A stretch of DNA of 64,000 nt, taken from assembly GCA_024655825.1 (NCBI GenBank), contig JANLFJ010000009.1, positions 1 to 64,000 of the forward strand, read 5' to 3'. Position 1 is the stretch's first letter. The number at the start of each line of letters is the position of its first letter. A model generated the notes under the pieces. That model was not told where the DNA came from and searched no databases. It worked only from the letters and a program-made list of their open reading frames with translations. This stretch comes from Peptococcaceae bacterium. Lineage in GTDB: Bacteria; Bacillota; Peptococcia; DRI-13; PHAD01. Of the stretch, positions 2,464 to 57,062 are shown piece after piece. The translations under genes were made by a program, and so were the position numbers.

Positions 2464-2551
2464 AGTTGTTTCACCGGATGCAATATTAGAAACACAGGAA
2501 ATATATAAAATCTAAACCAGTTTTATTTAGCTGCTGCGAGGAGTGAGATTA

Positions 2552-3772
2552 TTGAAATACGTGGTAATTGTGCCTGACGGGATGGCTGATTATCCTGTCC
2601 TCGAATTGGGGGGGCGCACTCCCCTGGAAGCCGCAAATACGCCGGCCTTTGACCGCCTGGCAGAGGCCGGGGAAGTCGGCATGGTCAAGACAATCCCCGA
2701 GGGGATGGCGCCGGGAAGCGACACGGCCAACCTGGCGGTAATGGGCTATGATCCCCGGGTGTATTATTTCGGCCGTTCTCCTTTTGAAGCGATCAGCATG
2801 GGCTTGAACCTTGCGGATACCGATGCGGTTTTCCGCTGCAACGTGGTGACGCTCTCAGAAGACGAGCCGTACGGCGAAAAGACCATGCTGGACCACAGTT
2901 CCGACGAGATTTCCACGGAGGAAGCAAGGGAACTGCTCGAAACCGTCAATCAACACCTGCGGACCGAAGAAATGACTTTTTACCCCGGGGTGAGCTACCG
3001 GCACATCCTCGTCTGGAACAATGCCCCGTTTGATTTCCGGTTTACCCCTCCCCATGACATCATCGGCCGAAAGATAAAGGAATACCTGCCTGCCGGCCCT
3101 TATGGCAGTCTTTTCCTCGGCATGATGGAAAAAAGCAGCAAGTTTTTAAAAGACCATCCCGTCAATATCAGGCGGAAGGAGCGCGGGTTAAAACCCGCCA
3201 ACTCCATCTGGATCTGGGGCGAAGGCAAAAAACCGCGGCTGCCGAATTTTTTTGAGAAATACGGGTTAAACGGTTCGGTTATCTCTGCGGTTGACCTCAT
3301 CAAGGGGATCGGGATTTGCGCTGGCCTGGAGCCGATAGAGGTGGAAGGGGCTACGGGCAACTTCCATACCAACTACGAGGGCAAAGCCCGGGCGGCCCTC
3401 GACGCGCTGCAAAACGGCCGGGACCTGGTTTACATCCATATTGAGGCGCCCGACGAGTGCGGGCACCGCTATGAAATCGAAAACAAGGTCAAATCCATTG
3501 AGGCGATCGACGCCAGGATCGTCAAGCCCATTACCGCTGAACTCGAAGCAGGGGGAGAGGAATACGCGGTCCTGCTCCTGCCTGATCACCCAACCCCGCT
3601 GAGACTGCGGACCCACACGGCTGAACCGGTTCCCTTTTTGATTTACAGAAGCGGCGACAAAAAAGACGGACGCGGACAGATTTATAACGAAGCGTCGGCG
3701 GCGGCCGCAGGCCGCTATATCGAGGAGGGGCACAAGCTGATGGATTACTTTGTAGGGAAACTCCCGTGGTGA
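2552..3772 (+). CDS. apgM: cofactor-independent phosphoglycerate mutase, ApgM family
   Basis: The 406-residue protein belongs to the archaeal-type, 2,3-bisphosphoglycerate-independent mutases of the alkaline phosphatase superfamily, which interconvert 3- and 2-phosphoglycerate with two metal ions. The metal Asp near residue 9 (VPDGMAD), the phosphorylated Ser near 56 (APGSDTANLAVMGYDP), HIEAPDECGH and LLPDHPTPLR are all present. The TTG at 2552 is chosen because GAGGAG stands 8 nt before it; the GTG at 2543 overlaps that site. Some bacterial members of this family were proposed to act as homoserine kinase, so that role stays open; no threonine genes are nearby. It is the first core gene after the accessory patch, and a double hairpin ends it. 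Confidence 0.88.
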   Translation: MKYVVIVPDGMADYPVLELGGRTPLEAANTPAFDRLAEAGEVGMVKTIPEGMAPGSDTANLAVMGYDPRVYYFGRSPFEAISMGLNLADTDAVFRCNVVTLSEDEPYGEKTMLDHSSDEISTEEARELLETVNQHLRTEEMTFYPGVSYRHILVWNNAPFDFRFTPPHDIIGRKIKEYLPAGPYGSLFLGMMEKSSKFLKDHPVNIRRKERGLKPANSIWIWGEGKKPRLPNFFEKYGLNGSVISAVDLIKGIGICAGLEPIEVEGATGNFHTNYEGKARAALDALQNGRDLVYIHIEAPDECGHRYEIENKVKSIEAIDARIVKPITAELEAGGEEYAVLLLPDHPTPLRLRTHTAEPVPFLIYRSGDKKDGRGQIYNEASAAAAGRYIEEGHKLMDYFVGKLPW

Positions 3773-3875: not shown

Positions 3876-5498
3876 TTACTCTTCCGGCAAGGCTTTGGCG
3901 CCGGAAACGGGGGTCAAAAGTTTTTTATAGAAGGCCTCTTCCACCGGCGATGTCAGGAGGCTTACCACTACCATGGTCAATGCCGAAAGGGGCAGGGAAA
4001 TGACGATGGGATCGACCACTGTCCAGGGGAAGCCGGCCAGGGTAGCCTTCCCCGTTAGGGCTTTGCTGATGCCGAGTCCCGCTGCCCCTTTGGCATAAAC
4101 GAAGGTCAGCCAAAAGAGGCTGCTGAGGGAGCCTATCACCATGCTGGCGATGGCCCCGGCAGTGGTAGCCCGCGGCCAGTATAAAGCGGCAGCATAGGCG
4201 GGAAGGAAGCTGGCGGCGCAAACGCCGAAAAAAATGGAAGTGGCTACGGCGATTATGCCGGCCGGAAGGCGGAAAGTGAGCCAGACTGTTATGATCATGG
4301 CTGCGGCCAGACCCAGCCTGTTTATCAACAACGAGTGCTTTACGGACCTGGACTTTGAACCGGCGTACAGGTCGCGGCTTAAAGAGGTGCCTATCACATG
4401 GAATTGCCCGCTTAAGGTGGACATGGCCGCTGCCATCAGCGTCAGGGTAAACAGGTAGGTAAACCAGGACGGCATGGCGGAATTGATGAACAGGGGTATG
4501 ATCCGGTCGACATTAGGGGCGTTGGTGGCGGGGTCAATGGAAGCCGTAAGCGCGATCTTGCCCGTGGTTTGAGCGAAATAGGCATTGGAAAGGGAACCCA
4601 CGACGAAAGCCACTCCCGTCATCATCAGGATGAATATACCGCCCACTACTACGGCCCGGTTTAATTCCCGGGGCGCTTTTACCGTCAGGTAGCGGACGAT
4701 TAACTGGGGCTGGGCCAGGACCCCGATTCCCACACCCATTACCAGGGTTGATACAACCACCCACCAGTATTCCGAACCCAGAGCGGGCATGCTGGTCCAG
4801 CCCAGGTGGCCTTTCTGCGCCAGGCTGGCGGGAACCTGCGAGGACAGGGCTGTCAGAGCCTTGTGGGCCGTAAGAATCCCGCCCAGTTTGGCATAAGTCA
4901 TCACCAATAGAAGCGACATGCCGATAAACATGATGCTTCCCTGGAGTGCGTCTGTGTAAACAACGCCTTTCAGCCCGCCGGTTATCACATAGGCGGCGAC
5001 GAACAGGGCGAAGACCCACACCGCCAGTTCGTAATTTATGTTGAGGGTTTGCTCCAGGAACCTGCTGCCGCCGATCATTACCGCCGCGGCATACAGGGGC
5101 ATGGCGCAGGTCACAACAACCGCCGCGTAGCGCTGGATGAAGTCTGATTGATAGCGGCGTCCCAGGAATTCAGGAAAGGTATGGGCATCCAGGTTGCGTC
5201 CCAGGATGAGGGTCCGCTTGCCGAAAAAGACGAAGGCCAGGAAGATGCCGACAAAGATGTTGGCGAAAGTCAGCCAGAGCAGGCTCATGCCGTACATCCC
5301 GGCGGTTCCTCCGAAGCCGACGATGGCCGACGTGCTGATGAAGGTCGAACCATAGGCCAGGGCCATCAGGTACGGGTGCACGTTGCCGCCCGCAATGAGA
5401 TAATCCTTGTCGGACCTGGTCCGCCGGTAGGCTATGTAGCCGAGTATCGCCACGGCCAGAAGATAAATAACGACTATTGCTATTAGCTTGACGTTCAC
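3876..5498 (-). CDS. sodium:solute symporter (SSS family)
   Basis: The 540-residue membrane protein has about 13 hydrophobic segments and the sodium:solute symporter signature region (YVITGGLKGVVYTDALQG). It takes up a small organic solute with sodium across the cytoplasmic membrane. Members transport acetate, proline, pantothenate or other solutes, and the substrate cannot be read from the sequence. Upstream is a 35-residue peptide gene and, before that, two T-boxes whose specifiers read UUC by alignment. That would tie expression to uncharged tRNA-Phe, so an aromatic amino acid or a precursor is a reasonable guess. A GGAGT site precedes the ATG. Confidence 0.85.
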   Translation of the reverse strand: MNVKLIAIVVIYLLAVAILGYIAYRRTRSDKDYLIAGGNVHPYLMALAYGSTFISTSAIVGFGGTAGMYGMSLLWLTFANIFVGIFLAFVFFGKRTLILGRNLDAHTFPEFLGRRYQSDFIQRYAAVVVTCAMPLYAAAVMIGGSRFLEQTLNINYELAVWVFALFVAAYVITGGLKGVVYTDALQGSIMFIGMSLLLVMTYAKLGGILTAHKALTALSSQVPASLAQKGHLGWTSMPALGSEYWWVVVSTLVMGVGIGVLAQPQLIVRYLTVKAPRELNRAVVVGGIFILMMTGVAFVVGSLSNAYFAQTTGKIALTASIDPATNAPNVDRIIPLFINSAMPSWFTYLFTLTLMAAAMSTLSGQFHVIGTSLSRDLYAGSKSRSVKHSLLINRLGLAAAMIITVWLTFRLPAGIIAVATSIFFGVCAASFLPAYAAALYWPRATTAGAIASMVIGSLSSLFWLTFVYAKGAAGLGISKALTGKATLAGFPWTVVDPIVISLPLSALTMVVVSLLTSPVEEAFYKKLLTPVSGAKALPEE

Positions 5499-5531: not shown

Positions 5532-5639
5532 TTAATCATTGCTGTTCCATTTGACCACGCCGTAAACCACGCACAGCACCGCCGAGAGAACGGAAAGCAG
5601 GTAAGCCAGCCAGATTTGGGGATCGGGTATGCCCAACAT
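5532..5639 (-). CDS. symporter small accessory protein (35 aa)
   Basis: This tiny gene encodes MLGIPDPQIWLAYLLSVL, then a second hydrophobic stretch ending KWNSND: a single membrane span with a short charged tail. Peptides of this shape are annotated next to SSS symporters as small accessory proteins. It sits 33 nt before the symporter in the same direction. The ATG at 5639 has GGAGG 8 nt upstream; an ATG at 5645 is only 2 nt from that site. It probably assists assembly or stability of the transporter, by analogy only. Confidence 0.75.
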   Translation of the reverse strand: MLGIPDPQIWLAYLLSVLSAVLCVVYGVVKWNSND

Positions 5640-5659: not shown

Positions 5660-5960
5660 AAAAAATGCAAAAGGCTTTCCATCCTGCGAGGACGAAAAGC
5701 CTTGTTTTCCGCGGTACCACCTCTCTTGACCGGAACTTATCCGGACCGCTCAGCAGGGCACAGGGCGAGAAGCCTTTATACCCCCCTTCCTGGTAACGGT
5801 GGAAGTTCCGTGGGGCCTACTTTCCGACTTCTTGGTCAGTTTCAGCCGCCGGCTCCGGAGAGAACTTCGGCCGGGCAGACCATGAGGGAACTTGCAGTCA
5901 GCGATTCCCTCTCCCTGGAAGGCTGTTGCCGGCGTACTTTGCTCCGTCATTGCCGTTTAT
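5660..5960 (-). promoter_or_regulatory. T-box leader, proximal of two, probable Phe (UUC)
   Basis: Read leftward, stem I begins at GACGGAGC, the apical GGGAGAGGGAA loop follows, and the T-box core GTGGTACCGCGG is the complement of 5709-5720. The terminator pairs 5690-5703 with 5671-5684 and ends in a T-tract. Aligned with the Ile and Leu T-boxes of this window, the specifier is UUC at 5864-5862. Uncharged tRNA-Phe would favour the antiterminator and symporter transcription. Confidence 0.9.
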
Positions 5961-6002
5961 ATTCTCTTTTTGTTTTAATATTTTAATAGTTTTAAAAACG
6001 CC

Positions 6003-6300
6003 TAAAACAAAAAACTTCTCAGTCCTTTAGGGACGAGAAGCCATGCTTCCGCGGTACCACCCTGGTTGGTCTGGCGTGAGACCCTCTCGGCGACGCACGG
6101 GACCGGATCACTCGGTCTCAGCCGGTGCGCCCTTCCCGATAACGGTGGAAGGCCCGGGCAAACCTACTTGCTGCGCGCGCAGTTTCAGCCGCCGGCTCCG
6201 GAGGGAACTTCGACCGTCTTCCGCCCGGGAAGGCTTTCAGTCAGCGGCCTTCCCTCCCTGGGGGTTTCGAACGGCGTACTTTTCTCCGTCATTGCCTTGA
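6003..6300 (-). promoter_or_regulatory. T-box leader, distal of two, probable Phe (UUC)
   Basis: A second complete T-box lies directly upstream of the first: stem I from GACGGAGAAAAGTACG, T-box core as the complement of 6049-6060, and its own terminator at 6013-6040. The specifier region CGAAGTTCC matches that of the proximal copy, with UUC at 6207-6205. Two decisions in series would give a steeper response to charging of one tRNA. Confidence 0.9.
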
Positions 6301-6310
6301 TATTATTGTT

Positions 6311-56543: not shown

Positions 56544-56588
56544 TATAAATAACATTTATCTTTTGGAAATTGAATGTTTTCAAGGTAA

Positions 56589-56850
56589 AGGCGATGAAGG
56601 GAAGCTGTTATAGGAGAAAGTACGTCCCAGAGAGCCGGGGTGCTGGAAACCGGCACGTATGATATAACAACCTCGTCCCCTGGAGCCGTTTGCTCGAAAC
56701 ATCGCCAGTAGGGCAAGCCGGCGGCAGCCGTTAAGATGCGCGAATGAAGGTGACTTCCTTAGATGATATGGAGGTAAATGGGGTGGTACCGCGAGATTCC
56801 TCTCGTCCCTAACAGCCGTAAGGCTTAAGGGGTGAGGGGTTTTTTATTTA
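56589..56850 (+). promoter_or_regulatory. T-box leader of the ilv-leu operon, Leu (CUC) specifier
   Basis: The basal helix GGCGATG/CATCGCC (56590-56596 with 56700-56706), AGTA-like loop E, apical GGTGCTGGAAACCGGC and specifier CUC followed by G (56672-56674) are present. GGGTGGTACCGCGAG at 56781 is the T-box core, and the terminator ends in a T-run near 56840. Uncharged tRNA-Leu would permit readthrough. Confidence 0.92.
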
Positions 56851-56891
56851 AACAAAAATATTAAACCGTCATTTTTTATAAAACGATTGAA

Positions 56892-57062
56892 GTGTACCTA
56901 GGGTTCCAGCCGCCTGTTGGTTGGCCGGATGCTGCCGGCTGAAACGCGGTGATTGCGACCGAGCGGTACAGACAGATTTATTGAGAATCTGCTACACCGT
57001 GAGGATAAAAGACTCGAGCGGCAAGTTCTAATCGCCTGAACATGCTCGCTCGGATTTTTATA
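56892..57062 (+). promoter_or_regulatory. ykkC-class riboswitch, probably ppGpp type
   Basis: GTGTACCTAGGGTTCCAGC, GACCGAGCGGTACA and GAGGATAAAAGACTCGAG match the conserved blocks of the ykkC class, in order and spacing. A helix with GCTCGCTCGG and then ATTTTTAT gives a terminator that can compete with CCGAGCG of the aptamer. Position before ilvD, behind a Leu T-box, favours the ppGpp subtype (2a) over guanidine or PRPP; that is inference from context. Confidence 0.8.

Follow-up and report, generated by a model that had tools for sequence, protein, structure and literature searches.

The window analyzed here is a 64,000-nucleotide stretch from Peptococcaceae bacterium (GenBank assembly GCA_024655825.1, contig JANLFJ010000009.1, positions 1 to 64,000 of the forward strand). 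On its minus strand, a strand that the initial annotation left unstated, two T-box leaders precede two genes. The T-box transcribed first (T-box A) lies at positions 6026 to 6301, and the one transcribed second (T-box B) lies at positions 5685 to 5959. They are followed by a gene with a good ribosome binding site for a 35-amino-acid symporter small accessory protein (5532 to 5639, minus strand; NCBIfam NF045580, 75 bits against a cutoff of 35, E value of 3e-21) and by a gene for a 540-amino-acid sodium:solute symporter (SSS) (3876 to 5498, minus strand). Since the next gene (2543 to 3772) is on the plus strand, the transcription unit ends after the symporter, which is its last gene. A promoter scan gave just two weak sites, of which one was located upstream on the correct strand (6429 to 6401), and none was found between T-boxes A and B.

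Both T-boxes matched the Rfam covariance model RF00230 end to end (model positions 1 to 219), with 86.6 bits (E value of 2.1e-17) for A and 91.4 bits (E value of 1.3e-18) for B, and both narrowly missed the gathering score of 93 bits. The T-boxes of pheST, valS, and metG in the same genome were likewise below 93 bits (91.5, 83.4, and 81.2 bits, respectively), indicating that this threshold is strict for the genome. Because of these scores, a default Rfam scan of the window shows only the Leu T-box at 56585. T-box A contains stem I, a stem II region with the F-box CCGUUA, stem III, and the antiterminator, and T-box B is also complete. In both of them we observed a competing terminator hairpin with a terminal T run, namely, terminator A at positions 6003 to 6040 (minus strand; predicted fold of -19.9 kcal/mol), which was recognized in the sequence, and terminator B at positions 5671 to 5703 (minus strand; predicted fold of -23.5 kcal/mol), which has a 15-pair stem and then a T-rich tail. 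A simple terminator scan detected terminator B and missed terminator A. These full-length matches, each with its own hairpin and T run, confirm the initial description of two complete T-boxes lying head to tail with separate terminators. The two leaders share 72.5% identity over 262 aligned bases. In a leader tree, which was examined for a recent duplication of A and B, they paired weakly (90/72) and adjoined the second T-box of another genome, G077.

The specifier read in the Rfam columns is UUC in both T-boxes, at positions 6205 to 6207 in A (loop GAA-G-UUC-C) and 5862 to 5864 in B (loop GAA-G-UUC-U), both on the minus strand. We calibrated these columns using those T-boxes of the window's genome for which the amino acid is clear from the gene that follows. 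The window's own Ile T-box (ilvA) and Leu T-box (ilvD) gave AUC and CUC, and the others gave UCC (serA), ACC (thrS), GUC (valS), AUG (metG), GGC (glyQ), and UUC (pheST); that is, the columns were correct in all eight calibrating T-boxes. The genome has 14 T-box matches, and the specifier readings leave out those of leuS (L013, 30.5 bits) and ileS (L014, a 34-base match). Furthermore, UUC was found in 15 of 15 distinct T-boxes from leaders of orthologous symporters aligned to the Rfam model (L022, L019, L099, L021, L097, L100A, L100B, L104, L106, L112, L113, L117, L118, L122, and L123), where L019, which is identical to L101, was counted once. Outside the model alignments, L103 and L017 read UUC by eye, and the T-box of L016 is cut through by the contig end.

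The base following the specifier is not a purine in the window (C in A and U in B), and a one-base shift would turn UUC into GUU or UCY. Both facts would fit a misread specifier frame, with the T-boxes sensing tRNA-Val (GUU) or tRNA-Ser (UCC/UCU). We consider such a misreading extremely improbable and rejected the GUU and UCY specifiers on several grounds. The standard columns that give UUC here give GUC for valS and UCC for serA, so that the Val specifier named as an alternative in the initial annotation was not borne out by the T-box model. Besides, UUC alone stays constant across the orthologous leaders and both flanking bases vary: the 3' base is A in L100A, L113, and L123, G in L104, L117, L118, and L122, and C or U in the remainder, and the 5' base, which a shifted frame would include, is U in L123 (model) and A in L017 (by eye). 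The acceptor ends point the same way. The UGGU of the antiterminator, at positions 6056 to 6059 in A and 5716 to 5719 in B (minus strand), is complementary to the ACCA end of tRNA-Phe (GAA), as the serA T-box carries UGGC opposite the GCCA of tRNA-Ser and the thrS and glyQ T-boxes carry UGGA opposite the UCCA of their tRNAs. A T-box sensing tRNA-Ser would require UGGC; this comparison rules out Ser but not Val, because tRNA-Val also ends in ACCA. As for Val, the anticodons among the 25 tRNA loci scanned, a part of the genome, are CAC, UAC, and GAC, none of which is fully complementary to GUU. According to PMC7583486, a purine after the specifier is preferred because of stacking, and our readings agree that it is a preference and no strict rule. 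UUC is reported to be by far the favored Phe specifier, UUU accounting for 1% of the Phe cases in an example from Bacillales (PMC7778990). Thus, the proposed Phe specifier is well supported by the sequences for both T-boxes.

In the leader of ilvD (56585 to 57022, plus strand), we also observed a sub-threshold match to the Guanidine-I riboswitch at positions 56887 to 57022 (40.9 bits, E value of 7e-4), located after the Leu (CUC) T-box. The ykkC-type riboswitches at such ilv-leader positions are presumably of the ppGpp-binding subtype, which would place a T-box and a ppGpp switch in series.

The symporter belongs to the SSS family, with 190.3 bits for TIGR00813 (cutoff of 184) and 182.8 bits for PF00474 (cutoff of 22.8). 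None of the substrate-specific (equivalog) families reached its cutoff; for the PutP proline symporter family, TIGR02121, the score was 174.7 bits against 515.5. The protein has family membership (TIGR00813 and PF00474) in common with PutP, PanF, ActP, and MctC and scores below all of their equivalog cutoffs. Naming the symporter after one of these families was therefore rejected, and the PDB matches, to distantly related transporters of sugars, vitamins, and iodide, are uninformative on the substrate.

More can be learned from the other genes under Phe T-boxes in the window's genome. Other UUC T-boxes precede pheST (L005), aroF-pheA (L011, with the identity of both genes confirmed), and a gene for a PaaK-like phenylacetate-CoA ligase (L002), and the specifier loop of the last, GAA-G-UUC-U, is identical to that of T-box B. 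The ligase scored 619.8 bits, slightly below the equivalog cutoff of 646.3. It is encoded in a cluster (L128, positions 790 to 9300 of contig G000:C13) together with a sigma-54 regulator and, upstream of paaK, an aldehyde:ferredoxin oxidoreductase-like gene, a ferredoxin, a chorismate mutase/DAHP synthase, and an acyl-CoA dehydrogenase; possibly, this cluster represents a whole aryl-acid module. The symporter and PaaK genes are on separate contigs, and the genome has two PaaK-class genes. Elsewhere in the genome (L131, G000:C7), iorA begins 35 bases behind leuS and is followed by iorB. Because of this short distance, the genes of the indolepyruvate-type oxidoreductase (IOR) may share a transcript with leuS, downstream of its weak T-box (L013). 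Among symporter-bearing genomes and their relatives, a UUC T-box was present within 700 bases upstream in 11 of 58 PaaK loci, five of these 11 having been read in the Rfam columns.

Taken together, these features lead us to propose, as the reading that we moderately favor, that two serial T-boxes for tRNA-Phe gate the accessory protein and a symporter that is most likely a phenylacetate importer feeding Phe salvage. When tRNA-Phe is charged, each leader would fold into its terminator. When Phe is short, uncharged tRNA-Phe (anticodon GAA) would pair with UUC and UGGU and stabilize the antiterminator in A and subsequently, with the help of another tRNA molecule, that in B. We infer an AND logic, in which A and B must both antiterminate before the accessory protein and symporter genes are transcribed; the operon would then be on only at a real Phe shortage, with a sharper threshold than a single T-box would give. 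In such serial gates the two readthrough probabilities would multiply, giving less leakage and a sharper response, and this expectation from the layout agrees with the account of tandem T-boxes in PMC12452182. The imported phenylacetate would be converted to phenylacetyl-CoA by the PaaK-like ligase, which has its own Phe T-box and would respond to the same signal. The IOR would then form phenylpyruvate, the last Phe precursor, from phenylacetyl-CoA by reductive carboxylation, and transamination would yield Phe. There are precedents for this direction: rumen microbes are cited in PMC7356843 as making Phe from phenylacetate, and a biosynthetic role has been suggested in PMC13285125 for a Bacteroides IOR encoded beside an arylacetate-CoA ligase. 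The step from a Phe T-box to phenylacetate comes entirely from genomic context.

We examined this context in other genomes. Among 398 genomes of the phylum, 36 encode the symporter (E value of ≤1e-100), and 80 symporter loci were taken from named genomes of many phyla. In a FastTree tree of 120 proteins, 109 formed one clade with a support of 100. PaaK, ACT, IorA, or IorB was encoded within 1.5 to 2.5 kb in 34 of 103 clade loci, and the linkage was distributed over Bacteroidota (17 of 17), Actinomycetota (3 of 3), Pseudomonadota (4 of 5), Fibrobacterota (1 of 1), Planctomycetota (3 of 9), Spirochaetota (2 of 12), Bacillota (4 of 42), and others (0 of 14). Three actinomycetotal loci (L030, L033, and L043) have the order IorA-IorB-ACT-SSS-PaaK, genomes G091 and G129 have the order T-box-SSS-EamA-PaaK-ACT, and prephenate dehydratase is encoded farther along in some symporter clusters of Bacteroidota. 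As a control, we inspected other SSS loci of the same genomes, of which 8 of 22 were also near PaaK or IorA. The clade therefore showed no excess of linkage over other SSS genes (34 of 103 versus 8 of 22; p of 0.8), and we rejected PaaK linkage as a unique feature of the clade: such linkage recurs in several SSS groups and does not distinguish this one. Five of the eight linked control loci (L231, L232, L233, L235, and L248) belong to a neighboring SSS group with approximately 28 to 29% identity, and PaaK-class genes adjoin the SSS gene in all five.

Co-occurrence was also analyzed at the genome level. Of 27 genomes with the symporter, 26 encode PaaK, compared with 38 of 57 relatives that lack the symporter (E value of ≤1e-100; p of 0.002, uncorrected for kinship). 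Full-length IorA was not enriched with the symporter (20 of 27 genomes versus 27 of 31 without it; p of 0.3), and we rejected its co-occurrence as support. Seven symporter genomes had no strong IorA match and would need another oxidoreductase; one genome scored as lacking IorA, G001, has IorA pieces beside another SSS gene. At two of the symporter loci we noted further RNA elements. A cobalamin riboswitch (120.9 bits) lies at positions 1601 to 1773 of L097 (minus strand), divergent from the symporter leader, and a piece of a group II intron (139.1 bits) lies at positions 3303 to 3475 of L017 in G005 (minus strand), where it follows the symporter gene or overlaps its end.

In the initial annotation, phenylalanine or a related compound was the suggested cargo, and of the two, the data favor a related compound, given a PaaK under a Phe T-box and orthologous symporters encoded beside PaaK, ACT, and IorAB. 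It is rather unlikely, though consistent with a Phe specifier, that the symporter imports Phe itself and that both T-boxes tune the uptake of the amino acid that they sense. This is the usual relation for T-box transporters: Wels 2008 inferred substrates in this manner and listed an NSS transporter under a Phe T-box (PMC2494555). Moreover, a catabolic cluster degrading Phe would also carry IorAB, PaaK, and ACT. However, the symporter occurs with PaaK and ACT but without IOR in L061, L070, and L078, where import of an acid for the ligase is the simpler explanation, and a Phe T-box on PaaK makes sense only if phenylacetate is a source of Phe. We regard as improbable a broader importer of arylacetates or 2-oxo acids (indoleacetate, 4-hydroxyphenylacetate, and phenylpyruvate) for which phenylacetate is just one substrate. 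The two PaaK-like ligases per cluster in L030, L033, and several Bacteroidota loci are in line with such breadth, as are the two PaaK-class genes of the window's genome; on the other hand, all leader T-boxes read in the clade are UUC, whereas a broad importer would be expected to show some Tyr or Trp specifiers. Phenylacetate thus remains the substrate that we prefer.

The doubling of the switch is found beyond the window, in two forms. The full tandem was seen again in G077 (L100). In addition, many leaders combine a single specifier stem with two antiterminator-terminator units, which are 106 to 119 bases apart. These leaders precede the symporter (L021 from Desulforamulus aeronauticus, L022, L023, L097, L102, L103, L104, L105, L106, L107, L111, L112, and L114), PaaK (L148 and L169), and, in the window's genome, aroF-pheA (L011, listed with L129, G000:C2). 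By eye, the second unit has a stem III region and an antiterminator and lacks stem I and the F-box hairpin. Consensus folding of the second units recovered only the antiterminator, with eight pairs, three of which were changed on both sides. As a single stem I serves two units, one bound tRNA would have to rescue transcription twice. Among the classes described in PMC12452182 are full tandems and adjacent aptamers with one platform, and an arrangement of one sensor with two platforms fits neither of these. It is less usual than tandem T-boxes, which are a known kind. We see roughly even chances that many Bacillota possess a Phe starvation T-box regulon that includes an aryl-acid salvage arm, consisting of an Na+-dependent phenylacetate symporter and PaaK, with the switch doubled either as a full tandem (the window and G077) or as one stem I with two units.

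Neither tandem T-boxes nor T-box-controlled transporters are new; the interesting and testable part is a salvage arm for aryl acids under Phe control. The tandem of the window resembles those described in PMC12452182 for Bacillota (trp, ilv-leu, and thrS), in which two complete T-boxes of the same specificity, each with a Rho-independent terminator, precede one transcription unit, but it couples Phe to an SSS symporter, and the main text of that paper contains none of the words "symporter," "phenyl," and "pheA." Similarly, we used the specifier for inferring the cargo, as was done for the T-box transporters of Wels 2008, whereas the SSS family is absent from the transporter table of that paper (ABC, APC, DAACS, LIVCS, MFS, NHAC, and NSS; PMC2494555). 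The closest functional parallel is with arylacetate-CoA ligase/IOR systems (PMC13285125 and PMC7356843), which have a PaaK-like ligase and IorAB and with which orthologous symporters are clustered; unlike in the systems as described there, the ligase and symporter reported here, known from their sequences, are under Phe T-boxes.

A T-box specifier names the scarce amino acid and not necessarily the transported compound, and this caution applies to the present symporter as well. With that in mind, our analysis proposes a substrate that can be tested for a widespread clade of symporters, unclaimed by substrate-specific NCBIfam models, and ties the clade to Phe starvation. Besides, the leaders with one stem I would be well suited, as a clean natural test, for learning if a single bound tRNA can act twice. 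More broadly, the shared control suggests that anaerobes may treat phenylacetate as a regulated source of Phe, governed by the tRNA signal that also controls the synthesis and charging of Phe.
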